Below the pieces are notes generated by a model, which had not been told where the DNA came from, did not search any database, and was given only the letters and a program-made list of their open reading frames with translations. Positions 19,667-23,650 of a DNA stretch of 23,650 nucleotides are shown one piece after another. The number at the start of each line of letters is the position of its first letter. Position 1 is the stretch's first letter. Both the position numbers and the translations under genes were made by a program. Source of the DNA: Candidatus Aerophobetes bacterium Ae_b3b. Its GTDB lineage: Bacteria > Aerophobota > Aerophobia > Aerophobales > AE-B3A. The DNA is taken from positions 1-23,650 of the forward strand of contig NJBP01000034.1 in assembly GCA_005223085.1 (NCBI GenBank), written 5' to 3'.

Positions 19667-20584
19667 TTAATTTAAGTTAAGCCAACCTACTAAATCTTTG
19701 AACTCCCTGATATTGTTTCTCTGTAAATATTCTCCGATCCCCTCTTTTACCTTTATCATAGTTTTCGGGTCAATGAAATTTGCCGTTCCTATGGCTACCG
19801 CACTTGCCCCCGCCAGGATAAATTCTAAAGCGTCCACGGCGGTCATTATTCCGCCAACTCCAATTAGAGGTAGGTTCACTTTTTGGAAAGTCTGCCGGAC
19901 CATTCTTACAGCAATTGGTCTTATAGCAGGTCCCGAAAGACCTCCCGTAACATTACCCAACTTTGGTTTTCTAGTCTCTATATCGATGGCCATACCGACC
20001 AAGGTATTTATGAGAGACAGGGCTTCAGTACCGGCTTCTTCAGCTGCCTTAGCAATTTCGGTTATGTCGGTTACGTTGGGAGTGAGTTTGGTGATAAGGG
20101 GGATATCAGTAACCTCCCTTATTCTCTTCACTAAAGAGAAGACTAAGCTTGGATTGGTGCCGAAGATAAGACCCCCGTTCTTCACATTAGGACAGGAGAT
20201 ATTTATTTCTAAAGCATCTATTCCTTTAACTCTGTTGAGCCTCTCGGCGAGACGCAGATACTCCTCCTCCTTTTCTCCCGCAATATTAACCACCAATGCG
20301 GTGTTGAACCGTTGTAAAAGGGGAAGTTTTTCTCTGAGGAAAATCTTTAACCCGGGATTTTCTAATCCAATGGAATTGAGAAGTCCTGAGGGAGTCTCTG
20401 CTAGACGGGGAGGCCGATTTCCTTCCCTGGGTTCCAGGGTCACCGTCTTGGTGATTATTCCCCCCAGTTCATTAAGATCAATGAATCTACTATACTCTTC
20501 CCCATATCCAAAGGTTCCTGATGCTGCCAGAACAGGGTTCTTCAAGCTAATCCGGCCCAGTTTAATTTTCAAGTTCGGATTCAA
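19667..20584 (-). CDS. pyrD: Dihydroorotate dehydrogenase, class 1B type
   Basis: This 305-residue protein has NPVLAASGTFGYGEEY, GGIITKTVTLEPREGNRPPR, GLLNSIGLENPG and EINISCPNVKNGG with Cys131 as the catalytic base, the mark of class 1 (cytosolic) enzymes. FMN-site segments are GLSGPAIRPIAVRMV and GVGGIMTAVDALEFILAGASAVAIGTA. It oxidises dihydroorotate to orotate in pyrimidine synthesis. The 1B type normally works with the iron-sulfur/flavin subunit PyrK; no pyrK is next to it here. The start is a TTG at 20584 preceded by AAAGGTGAG. The TTG overlaps the TGA of the decayed DUF72 frame (TTGA). Confidence 0.93.
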   Translation of the reverse strand: MNPNLKIKLGRISLKNPVLAASGTFGYGEEYSRFIDLNELGGIITKTVTLEPREGNRPPRLAETPSGLLNSIGLENPGLKIFLREKLPLLQRFNTALVVNIAGEKEEEYLRLAERLNRVKGIDALEINISCPNVKNGGLIFGTNPSLVFSLVKRIREVTDIPLITKLTPNVTDITEIAKAAEEAGTEALSLINTLVGMAIDIETRKPKLGNVTGGLSGPAIRPIAVRMVRQTFQKVNLPLIGVGGIMTAVDALEFILAGASAVAIGTANFIDPKTMIKVKEGIGEYLQRNNIREFKDLVGWLNLN

Positions 20585-20913: not shown

Positions 20914-21077
20914 AGGTAGGCACTCGCCTATGCTCGTGCACTACCTCCCTTAGAAAGTAAGAGACATCCCCTCACCGTATCGGTGAATGAGGCCGCTTGA
21001 GTACCGATGAATTTCTGGGTTTGACCTTGACATCGAGAATCTCAAGGGTAAGCGTAGGTAGTTAATAAGATACCTAC
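20914..21077. repeat. Cluster of four hairpins, possible structured RNA or mobile-element end
   Basis: Hairpin 1 is AGGTAGGCAC (20914-20923) with GTGC-A-CTACCT (20936-20946), ten pairs with a single bulged A. Hairpin 2 is TCACCG-TAT-CGGTGA (20972-20986). Hairpin 3 is CCTTGA (21025-21030) with TCAAGG (21042-21047). Hairpin 4 is GTAGGTA (21054-21060) with TACCTAC (21071-21077). ATCGGT (20979-20984) can also pair with ACCGAT (21003-21008), an alternative fold. AGGTAG and its complement occur in both outer hairpins. A relic of an IS200/IS605-type end or its guide RNA would fit bulged hairpins, but no transposase or TnpB is recognisable. Confidence 0.5.
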
Positions 21078-21258: not shown

Positions 21259-21275
21259 GTTATACGCAGTAGCCC
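21259..21275. repeat. Left arm of the 17-bp inverted repeat framing the NucS-like gene
   Basis: GTTATACGCAGTAGCCC pairs with GGGCTATTGCGTATAAC at 22233-22249 at 16 of 17 positions. Read on the minus strand, this arm ends in GTATAAC two bases after the stop region of the gene, where an integron cassette would carry the first box of its attC. Confidence 0.8.
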
Positions 21276-21277
21276 CA

Positions 21278-22213
21278 TCATTGTAATTTGAAACAGTCAA
21301 GTTTAACACCATAGACAACTATCTCGATTCCAAGAGATTCACAAGCCTTTTGTAGTTTTGGAGACACCTTACCATCGCAGACAATCATTTTCCTAATTTT
21401 CCTTGTTGGATACTCTTTTTCTATGTCTCTTACATAGCTTGCAACCTGTGTTGGAATTTCATCTGTTAATTTATCCGGTCCTTTTAGTTCAGCTACAATA
21501 AGTGAGCCATCCACTGCTTCAAGTACTAAATCCAATCTATCACCATCTGGTAAGACTTTTTCGTAATCAATAACTCTGGCGTCTTTTTCTATCACAGAAG
21601 GGTTTTTGCGCAGCAGTTTTTGTATTTCGGATTCTTTTAGCCTGTGAACTTCATCCATAGGGATTATCTTCTCGCTTTCATCATAAAAATAAAGGTGATA
21701 TTGAACATCCGGTGGGTTTTCAATTTTAACGTTCTCCTCATATTTCTCGATTTCATCAAGCAAAATGGAAACATCGTTATCAGTAAGCTGTCTATGAGAT
21801 CTGGTTGCTGATCCAATCACTGCAAGTTCAGTTTTTCTCCCGCTATTAAACGGTTCGAAGTCAATATTAAGAGATAGCTTTTTGGCCAATTGTTTAATGA
21901 AATAAATAGGTTTTCGCAATCTTTTTGACTTATTTTTATCGCCAATAAATAACCAATCGTCATACTGACCATCGCAATTTATTGAAGAATTGCTCTGTGC
22001 TTTCTTTCCGGGTAAGATTCTGTCGACAACGATATAACAAGTAATATATTTGCTTGAACCAATTTTCGTGTGAAAAAATAAATAGCTACCTTTTGACAAA
22101 TTATCTTTTAGCACTTTACCTCTTTGGCCTGATTCTCCATAAGCCAATTCTTTAAAATCAGGATCCTTATGTCCTTTTAATGGTACATACGGTATCAGGT
22201 AATGTTTTGGCAT
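21278..22213 (-). CDS. Putative nuclease: N-terminal unknown domain plus C-terminal NucS/DUF91-like PD-(D/E)XK domain
   Basis: This 311-residue protein has two parts. Residues about 190-300 look like a NucS/DUF91-type PD-(D/E)XK nuclease: KESEIQKLLRKNPSVIEKDARV, then DRLDLVLEAVDGSLIVAELKG with Asp228, Glu242 and Lys244 in the catalytic D...ExK arrangement, then QVASYV with the usual Gln (256). Residues 1-150 (MPKHYLIPYVPLKGHKDPDF, then SYLFFHTKIGSSKYITCYIVV and DDWLFIGDKN) form another domain. It recalls the nucleotide-modification-associated (Nmad) or EVE-like modules found next to nucleases, but I cannot name it firmly. The ATG has AAGGAG upstream. The gene lies between the arms of a 17-bp inverted repeat and after an attC-like site. 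It may act in defence against foreign or modified DNA; that is inference. Confidence 0.65.
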   Translation of the reverse strand: MPKHYLIPYVPLKGHKDPDFKELAYGESGQRGKVLKDNLSKGSYLFFHTKIGSSKYITCYIVVDRILPGKKAQSNSSINCDGQYDDWLFIGDKNKSKRLRKPIYFIKQLAKKLSLNIDFEPFNSGRKTELAVIGSATRSHRQLTDNDVSILLDEIEKYEENVKIENPPDVQYHLYFYDESEKIIPMDEVHRLKESEIQKLLRKNPSVIEKDARVIDYEKVLPDGDRLDLVLEAVDGSLIVAELKGPDKLTDEIPTQVASYVRDIEKEYPTRKIRKMIVCDGKVSPKLQKACESLGIEIVVYGVKLDCFKLQ

Positions 22214-22232
22214 CTATACTTTCTCCTTGAAT

Positions 22233-22249
22233 GGGCTATTGCGTATAAC
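22233..22249. repeat. Right arm of the 17-bp inverted repeat framing the NucS-like gene
   Basis: GGGCTATTGCGTATAAC is the reverse complement of 21259-21275 except for one base. On the minus strand it reads GTTATAC then GCAATAGCCC, starting the cassette 20 bases before the gene's ATG. It overlaps the end of the attC-like site. Confidence 0.8.
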
Positions 22250-22322
22250 GTCTTCGGTGTATGCGAAGTCCGCCGAAGGCGGATTTGGGGAAGCGTAACT
22301 TCCCACAAACACCGTGTTGGGC
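22243..22322 (-). mobile_element. attC-like recombination site (candidate integron cassette junction)
   Basis: Read on the minus strand, this 80-base stretch starts with GCCCAAC (22322-22316), a perfect RYYYAAC box, and ends with GTTATAC (22249-22243), a near match to the GTTRRRY core. Between them ACACCG (22309-22314) pairs with CGGTGT (22255-22260). Inside are two further hairpins: TCCGCC-GAA-GGCGGA (22269-22283) and GGGAAG-CGTAA-CTTCCC (22288-22304). The size is within the known attC range and the fold is strong. The two outer boxes do not pair with each other beyond AAC/GTT, as expected when they come from two neighbouring cassettes. The internal loops are not the classic attC pattern, and no integrase is in the window. 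Confidence 0.5.
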
Positions 22323-22368
22323 GATGCGACGAACTTTCTTTATAGAATGCAGTATTTCTCATATTACT

Positions 22369-22698
22369 TTAACCTCTCCATATCGCTTTTTGGATTACTT
22401 GAAATCGATCTTTGACTCCAAAACTCTTATACAAACTCTCGGTTAAAGTTCCTGTTGGATAATTAGTTCTTTCTTGTATTGCCACAAGTTCTATTGCCAC
22501 AAGTATAAATTCTACCGTAAATTCTCCAATTTTATCCAATTCTTTAAATGGCTCAACGTGTTCAGGCTTAAAGTACTGAATGGCTGGGGGAAATGAAGTA
22601 ACGGATTTAACTTGACTCAGCATTTCCAGGATGTGCTCTCTTAATTTTAGAGTCAACGACGAATTGAAAGCGTGCTTGACATACATCTCTACAATCAA
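22369..22698 (-). CDS. Small hypothetical protein in the cassette region
   Basis: I do not recognise this 109-residue protein (read from a TTG at 22698). It has a hydrophobic, helical middle (FTVEFILVAIELVAIQERTNY) and no clear motif. The frame is open further upstream to 22761, reading CEFREPNKRERTPAHVHL, which looks like coding sequence but has no ATG or GTG. So the true start may be missing, or the gene may be damaged at its 5' end. It lies 46 bases before the attC-like site in the right orientation to be the gene of the preceding cassette. Confidence 0.45.
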   Translation of the reverse strand: MIVEMYVKHAFNSSLTLKLREHILEMLSQVKSVTSFPPAIQYFKPEHVEPFKELDKIGEFTVEFILVAIELVAIQERTNYPTGTLTESLYKSFGVKDRFQVIQKAIWRG

Positions 22699-22744
22699 AT
22701 GAACATGAGCGGGTGTTCTTTCTCGCTTGTTTGGTTCTCTGAAT

Positions 22745-23056
22745 TCACACCGTTTGGTGTCTCACCCAAGCTGATATAGTATCTTTTTTTTGTTTCTTCC
22801 TAAGTCTTTCTGCTTTCTGTTTGATCTTATTAAGCGTGCCAACATCAACTTTGTTCATATCTACCCATAATCCATCTTCCTCACTTCCTTGCCCGAATTG
22901 TTCACCGGACACTACAAAAATCTCTCCATTGTTTAGAATAAATTCAAGCGAGCCCCAACCTGTGAGATCTTCTTTAGAATTTCTTTCCCTAACAAATAAG
23001 ATCCCTATTTCATTTGTTCTTTCAACAAAATGTTTCTTTGTGGTATCCATATTCAT
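22745..23056 (-). CDS. Small hypothetical protein, coupled to the upstream nuclease-like gene
   Basis: This 103-residue protein is unknown to me. Visible features are a beta-rich middle (GSLEFILNNGEIFVVSGEQFGQG) and a strongly basic helix near the end (NKIKQKAERLRKKQKK). Its ATG overlaps the upstream stop as ATGA, with AGGAGG just before it, so it is translated with the PD-(D/E)XK-like gene and may be its partner. The last codons overlap a hairpin ACACC-GTTT-GGTGT (22747-22760). Confidence 0.6.
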   Translation of the reverse strand: MNMDTTKKHFVERTNEIGILFVRERNSKEDLTGWGSLEFILNNGEIFVVSGEQFGQGSEEDGLWVDMNKVDVGTLNKIKQKAERLRKKQKKDTISAWVRHQTV

Positions 23057-23650
23057 CCTCCTCTTTCAATGATCCCAAATTGTTCCCGCCTCTCGTTATG
23101 CACTAAGGCAAAATTATATAATTCTTCTAACTCTTTATAAAGTTTAAACTGAAATCTATATTTAAACTCTCTAAACGGTGTCTGGCTGACATATTGGTTG
23201 AATAAATCTTTTTCCTTTGCACTTGGTCCAACTATAAAAAATCGAGCAGTGAACCTCCTTGGTATTTTCAACAACCTATCTAAGCCAGATTTTACTCTTG
23301 TTGTTTCTTCTACTTCAAAAGCGTAAACGGGAAACAACCCGTAATCATCTTCATCAAGCCACAAAGTATCTATTTCTCTAATCTTTGCCAAGTTAGGACC
23401 CCTGAAAATGTCGGTGCAGTCGGAGACAGTCACAAAATCTCTTAGCGGTTTATCTTGGAAAGTTCTAATAGTTTGGTCGTGTGGAGGTGCATAAGTCTCA
23501 TATCCATAAATGTTTCCGAGTGTAACTAACATTCCTTGAGCAATTCCGTGATCAATCTCTGATTCTTCAGTAAAATTTTGTGCTCCAGGCTTTATGTGAG
23601 TTTCTTCTACAACCTTATAAATGCCACTTCTTTTTGGCGGCACTGGTTCA
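23053..23650 (-). CDS. PD-(D/E)XK-like protein, N-terminus outside window
   Basis: The frame stays open to the window edge (EPVPPKRSGIYK), so the GTG at 23643 is probably not the true start and the gene is partial. The C-terminal 196 residues contain KIREIDTLWLDED (about 88-99), then VYAFEVEETTRVKSGLDRL (106-124) and RFFIVGP (134-140). A conserved Asp, then a beta strand with FEVE, a short gap and a G..RL helix recall PD-(D/E)XK restriction-like proteins in which FEVE(H/E)(S/T)T replaces the usual ExK. The function is unknown. It is translationally coupled to the small protein downstream. A role in restriction or defence is plausible but unproven. Confidence 0.55.
   Translation of the reverse strand, partial: EPVPPKRSGIYKVVEETHIKPGAQNFTEESEIDHGIAQGMLVTLGNIYGYETYAPPHDQTIRTFQDKPLRDFVTVSDCTDIFRGPNLAKIREIDTLWLDEDDYGLFPVYAFEVEETTRVKSGLDRLLKIPRRFTARFFIVGPSAKEKDLFNQYVSQTPFREFKYRFQFKLYKELEELYNFALVHNERREQFGIIERGG

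Follow-up and report, generated by a model that had tools for sequence, protein, structure and literature searches.

The window analysed here is a whole contig (C19) of 23,650 bp from the draft genome of Candidatus Aerophobetes bacterium Ae_b3b (2.04 Mb in 86 contigs, 88.6% complete), the nearest named relative of which in the public set is the Aerophobetes genome G013 (also L086). Beyond the chromosomal gene pyrD lie a cassette encoding a NucS-like nuclease, a structured attC-like site that we call S, and part of a second cassette (Table 1); one S and two cassettes are all that the window shows. The ORFs of the upstream cassette match no Pfam family. No S body was found behind the nuclease gene, beyond 21259, and we therefore regard its cassette as a terminal, truncated member of an array. 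The stretch between pyrD and this cassette, in a region partly common to the same-genus genome G001, is non-coding at 20920-21060 and contains a short hairpin (GCACTCGCCTATGCTCGTGC).

Table 1. Features of the window around the S site
Feature	Position	Strand	Description
NucS-like gene cassette	21259..22249	-	ends GTTATACGCAATAGCCC ... GGGCTACTGCGTATAAC in gene orientation; self-complementary 16/17
Cargo CDS, 311 aa	21278..22213	-	weak C-terminal NucS/RecB-like nuclease domain; ATG 36 nt past cassette start
S body, attC-like, 66 bp	22250..22315	-	A - CGGTGTTTG... two hairpins ...CATACACCG - AAGAC (gene orientation)
Core box GTTATAC	22243..22249	-	opens the NucS-like cassette; R'-like
Core box GCCCAAC	22316..22322	-	closes the upstream cassette; R''-like; GTTGGGC on forward strand
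Left complementary arm	21259..21280	+	cassette end; inverted-repeat search
Right complementary arm	22228..22249	+	cassette start; inverted-repeat search
Upstream cassette, partial	22316..23650	-	cut off by contig end; ORFs of 109, 103 and 196 aa
pyrD, chromosomal	19667..20584	-	array boundary on that side; pyrK-pyrD are neighbours in relatives; G001 aligns with window upstream of pyrD

The cargo protein had been described as NucS-like, and a weak similarity does exist, but it is confined to the C-terminal part: Pfam NucS_C scores 18.2 bits, under the cut-off of 24, so that a NucS domain is not assigned. A Peribacillus 'endonuclease NucS domain-containing protein' matches at 28% over 97%, PADLOC PDC-S11 at 1e-6 and NucS structures at E 0.007, the D..ELK..Q motif being kept in the latter alignment. 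An AlphaFold2 model of the nuclease alone reached a pLDDT of 40 and was left out of the evidence. The gene is missing from the 40 other genomes searched, G001 among them, and the pyrK-pyrD locus of G001 has a different cassette; the comparison with related genomes thus agrees with the cassette reading of the preliminary description.

The boxes GTATAAC (22243-22249), GTTGGGC (22316-22322) and GTTATAC (21259-21265) had been placed exactly. GCCCAAC fits the attC consensus RYYYAAC, and GTTATAC carries a T at the second R of the consensus GTTRRRY; within the S family AAC/GTT is strict and the remaining core-box letters are loose. The two 22-nt arms are complementary at 19 of 22 positions (86%). Long pairing of the cassette ends was claimed correctly, but not an unbroken 17 bp: beside the cores 16 of the first 17 bases pair, and the mismatch, at position 11, is systematic. 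A single-strand fold of the site had been proposed as a check, and the fold of the 90-nt site is more stable than all 200 shuffles on either strand (z -3.6 and -3.9). An Rfam search of the site returned no family, and the 80-bp site used as a plain query against plasmids and phages gave chance-level pieces only. A duplicated 35-nt match on contig C55 of the same genome was rejected as an S site.

Searching the phylum recovered a 92% identical copy of the site in G013, an Aerophobetes of another family, where it sits between a SIR2-domain pair and a PIN toxin pair, each module with its own 17-20-bp complementary ends. In the same genome (G013:C47; L034 2066-7062) duplicates of the alaS end and of a 151-nt stretch flank the cassette island, an arrangement that entry of an integrative element at alaS would produce. 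A pattern built from three sites and run on 85,000 species genomes gave 16 loci. The hosts are Dehalococcoidia, Aminicenantes, Aerophobetes, Acetothermia and Thermodesulfovibrionales among bacteria, while the archaeal hosts come from a number of orders, among them Methanophagales, Methanocellales and Thermoplasmatales; several hosts are metagenome-assembled genomes, in which binning errors are possible. A Clostridia locus (L083) was judged a chance match to the pattern.

Read in gene orientation, a module starts with GTT, ends with AAC and has mutually complementary ends, and an S body comes next. The array is directional, its genes running in the same direction as the recombinase described below and S standing at the gene 3' end; the last cassette lacks S both in the window and in G013. 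Arms vary from module to module and pair only within their own module and in one direction: at the 16 S sites examined, arms complementary at 14 or more of 17 positions were found in 10 of 32 cases in cassette direction, as against 0 of 32 in the opposite direction and 1 of 160 after shuffling. For 18 cassettes, picked by overall arm match and not by position 11, the matches per position were 17, 18, 18, 18, 18, 18, 17, 18, 15, 14, 0, 18, 16, 17, 15, 13 and 14. At position 11 all 18 cassettes read A in the starting arm and G in the complemented end arm, which amounts to an A.C mispair on the gene strand and a G.T wobble on the other. Folding energies of circular junctions favour the strand complementary to the genes by 3.8-6.3 kcal/mol (4/4). 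The spacers of S are asymmetric as well, with 5 nt (GTYTT) versus 1 nt. The L stem of most S has no bulge within the first 10 bp; about 11 bp into the stem, one or two A stay unpaired in a GAAGT motif, and given these the statement that S is wholly devoid of extrahelical bases had to be softened. Gene-less mini-cassettes, consisting of GTT, a short palindrome and AAC, directly precede the S body in the genome studied here (L123 1592-1628) and in Chryseobacterium (L159 9128-9165).

Many S-bearing genomes encode a tyrosine recombinase of 320-370 aa, which we name S-Int. On five contigs, from Aminicenantes, Methanocellales, Dehalococcoidia, Acetothermia and Methanophagales, its gene is found at a distance of 0.8-4 kb from S and is aimed at the array. 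It is sporadic, occurring in 12 of 58 genomes of one archaeal class, where the strict S pattern and S-Int overlap only in part; three or four S-bearing genomes (G013, G058, G065, G087) have no recognisable S-Int. Neither the Aerophobetes genome nor 26 S-bearing genomes or records contain an IntI above the TIGR02249 cut-off. Against that model S-Int scores 214-239 bits (cut-off 265), its matches jumping model positions ~180-235, and it exceeds the cut-off of NCBIfam NF040815 ('site-specific tyrosine recombinase/integron integrase'). By sequence and by fold the Vibrio integron integrase 2a3v is its best PDB match, ahead of archaeal XerA, and residues 172-235 of 2a3v have only 22 counterparts in S-Int. 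The region known as I2 (about 42 residues) is absent from every aligned S-Int, from the relatives on Chryseobacterium and Klebsiella plasmids and from Xer; in the same alignment the insertion is present in IntI1, IntI2 and Shewanella IntI. An AlphaFold2 model of S-Int, weak at a mean pLDDT of 61, has no helix at the I2 location.

In a phylogenetic tree S-Int, its Bacteroidetes relatives and IntI are separated from XerC/D (100/100) and IntI forms one clade (100/99), while the branching order inside the larger group is not fixed. S-Int carries an extra N-terminal domain and an IntI-type 'SPLD' tail. It is not the housekeeping Xer protein: the Aerophobetes genome has a separate XerC and XerD, and S-Int is sporadic and stands apart from both in the tree. 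The IntI-family matches on contigs C6, C15 and C41 of this genome are other recombinases, XerC/XerD among them. On G000:C6 (L122, 1178-5187) three short tyrosine recombinase genes unrelated to S-Int stand in a row, with an ORF for a TIR-like-domain or nucleotide-binding protein between them.

Behind the stop codon of the recombinase lie two palindromes of ~24 bp with a CCAAATTGGAG-like spacer between them, directly followed by the GTT of the first cassette. This double palindrome, 17-130 nt past the gene and ending at GTT, has the placement of an integron attI. Eight such sequences align, from archaea, Aminicenantes, the Aerophobetes genome, its congener G001 and a Klebsiella plasmid.

On C71, a second contig of the Aerophobetes genome, pyrK is followed by an S-Int fragment (C71:1627-1959) and an attI remnant; next come a mini-cassette (GTTAAGCAAAATG..CATTTTGCTTAAC), an S body and a cassette whose gene encodes 328 aa. 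In the window, the array stops short of pyrD. Wherever both genes were seen in a relative, pyrK and pyrD are neighbours or about 1 kb from each other; the 1-kb gap in G001 matches C71 on one flank (the end of pyrK and attI) and the pyrD upstream region of the window on the other, with the recombinase lost and a methyltransferase fragment in its place. Because the gap in G001 aligns with both contigs, C71 and C19 are very probably the two ends of one array, the unassembled part of which would lie between them. The recombinase here is a decayed fragment, and since no intact one is present the system in this host has probably lost its autonomy and is probably inactive.

The preliminary description had held that a lack of further sites and of an integrase, together with constant presence of the gene, without the repeats, in related strains, would speak against a cassette. 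The exact 80-bp site does occur only once, but C71 holds a divergent S; and the genome has remnants of a recombinase and of an attI-like site, though the recombinase is not a canonical IntI. With the gene lacking in relatives, these finds leave the cassette reading standing: the site belongs to a family that separates modules with self-complementary ends, and a recombinase and an attI-like site adjoin it in several genomes.

Comparisons between genomes and plasmids bear on movement. Two Dehalococcoidia genomes have 4,390 bp in common at 97.8%, through the recombinase and exactly to the last base of ..GTCTAAC; past it they have nothing in common. A Chryseobacterium isolate plasmid (NZ_CP041688.1, L159, 7980-17014) carries a recombinase, an attI-like site, cassettes and S-like stems (GGCCAGCTCGGCTT/AAGCCGAGCTGGCC) in a complete integron-like array with hairpin mini-cassettes and insertions of IS110 and a group II intron; in an arm search at 13/17 shuffles of this plasmid give as many pairs, so only arms abutting S were used there. 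In five plasmids (e.g. NZ_CP084417.1, L185, 6139-7757; L189) a fragment of an S-Int relative and an S-type attI immediately precede blaVEB-3. Most of the blaVEB plasmid matches listed begin at, or at most 3 bases from, the G of the cassette start, and the one listed record examined is a class 1 integron. The blaVEB cassette in class 1 integrons starts at the same base as that behind the S-type attI, and its ends obey the position-11 rule.

We consider it likely that the window holds the far end of a cassette array of integron-like type, belonging to a class whose recombinase is devoid of I2. The array would run from pyrK through the recombinase (now a remnant), an attI-like double palindrome and cassettes of the form GTT..gene..AAC, each with an S behind it, to the NucS-like cassette and pyrD. 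What can be read directly from the sequences is the arms, the S family, the attI-like site, the neighbourhood of the recombinase, its lack of I2 and a breakpoint that falls sharply at the core. From these we infer that S-Int, an IntI/XerA-type enzyme without the I2 helix, would recombine the GTT core of attI with that of an S folded as a single strand. In the circular cassette the two ends would pair over 14-20 bp and so lengthen the S hairpin, and the strand could be chosen by the G.T wobble, which the gene-complementary strand carries where the gene strand has A.C, together with the unequal spacers. The position-11 wobble possibly stands in for extrahelical bases, and a link between the lack of I2 and the altered site is an attractive possibility. 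Weighing against the array reading are the fragmentary recombinase and the split of the array over two contigs of a draft metagenome-assembled genome, the S-bearing genomes with no recognisable S-Int, the last cassettes without S, and the reversed gene orientation in S arrays of Bacteroidetes type on viral contigs.

Whether this amounts to a separate, cross-domain class of cassette capture, sister or ancestral to integrons, in which an I2-less recombinase acts on structured sites and the strand signal of extrahelical bases has given way to a lengthened stem bearing a fixed G.T wobble, we judge to be evenly balanced.

The main competitor, an unlikely one in our view, is an ordinary CALIN of a canonical integron, with S as a lineage-specific attC for a classical I2-bearing IntI and S-Int as an unrelated neighbour. 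The layout, the bottom-strand hairpin, the GTT/AAC cores and the cargo types (toxin-antitoxin modules, nucleases) all agree with it, a blaVEB cassette with the same arm rule also occurs in class 1 integrons, and the canonical cassette aadB has 12 complementary bases at its ends. However, aadB is matched at position 11, where all 18 S-family cassettes have A/G; the L stem of S is usually free of bulges over its first 10 bp; S is adjoined by S-Int with a conserved attI; and an IntI over the TIGR02249 cut-off is lacking throughout the genomes and records surveyed. The inverted arms flanking the gene and the duplicated alaS sequence bordering the G013 island would suit a transposon, or an element of MITE type, that has long inverted repeats as its ends and the gene as passenger; this is very improbable, since a transposon family would have common ends and the arms are module-specific and one-directional, S stands once between modules and not at both ends, and no target-site duplication was seen. 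That S is an RNA element or terminator with arms arising by chance is scarcely credible: the fold is stable on both strands, but Rfam has no such family, and the arm counts and the sharp core breakpoint between close genomes speak against it.

In its anatomy the system is an integron with another recombinase. Features in common with integrons are a recombinase gene, an attI-like site, a directional array of small genes with structured sites, core GTT, a hairpin favoured on the gene-complementary strand, toxin-antitoxin and nuclease cargo, and occurrence in both domains. Unlike IntI, S-Int is without the additional domain, stays below the model cut-off and is encoded co-directionally with the cassettes; the paired ends of S cassettes span 14-20 bp and include a fixed G.T, the spacers are 5 and 1 nt, and attI is a double palindrome. 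Xer/XerA with dif is alike in that S-Int passes the NF040815 cut-off and has no I2, and in that half of attI resembles a dif-like palindrome; it differs in that S-Int is tied to cassette arrays, has the extra N-terminal domain and the 'SPLD' tail, and groups with IntI. The blaVEB cassette has A/G at position 11 and lies behind an S-Int fragment and S-type attI in the five plasmids, but it also occurs in class 1 integrons with IntI1 and has a longer attC with a bulged L stem.

In the accepted account, it was the gain of I2 that let integron integrases recombine folded, single-stranded attC. I2 is the helix that docks the extrahelical bases of attC in IntI, and the 2020 eLife study regrets the absence of intermediates (PMC7790495). 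Archaeal integrons with canonical IntI are already known (Ghaly et al. 2022, PMC9668308). For the insertion-less members of the 'integron-like' simple tyrosine recombinases of Smyshlyaev et al. (2021, PMC8138268), the sections of that study consulted describe no att sites, attI or cassette arrays. In the open-access literature, to which our survey was confined with subscription papers and preprints outside its scope, we found no description of cassette arrays run by an I2-less recombinase; novelty is therefore provisional, and to that extent the earlier guess of an undescribed cassette type holds. Recombinases without I2 beside attI and attC-like arrays make the question of I2 gain directly testable, and such a class, if real, would fall naturally between Xer-type and integron recombination as an intermediate. 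As standard integron searches need an IntI profile and canonical attC models, S arrays are likely to be missed by them. Relatives of the system are present in archaea, several bacterial phyla and plasmids, one of them beside a clinical beta-lactamase gene, and the S-type attI and recombinase fragment before blaVEB-3 suggest this system as the source of part of the pool of resistance cassettes.

A related form of S occurs on Bacteroidetes-like contigs classed as viral, their host group being inferred. At these sites (L038-L070, e.g. L118 5358-6989) the genes run opposite to S and the site contains long variable inserts. On a Rufibacter plasmid (L184), a recombinase similar to that of the Chryseobacterium plasmid is succeeded by a series of small genes in one direction with it.
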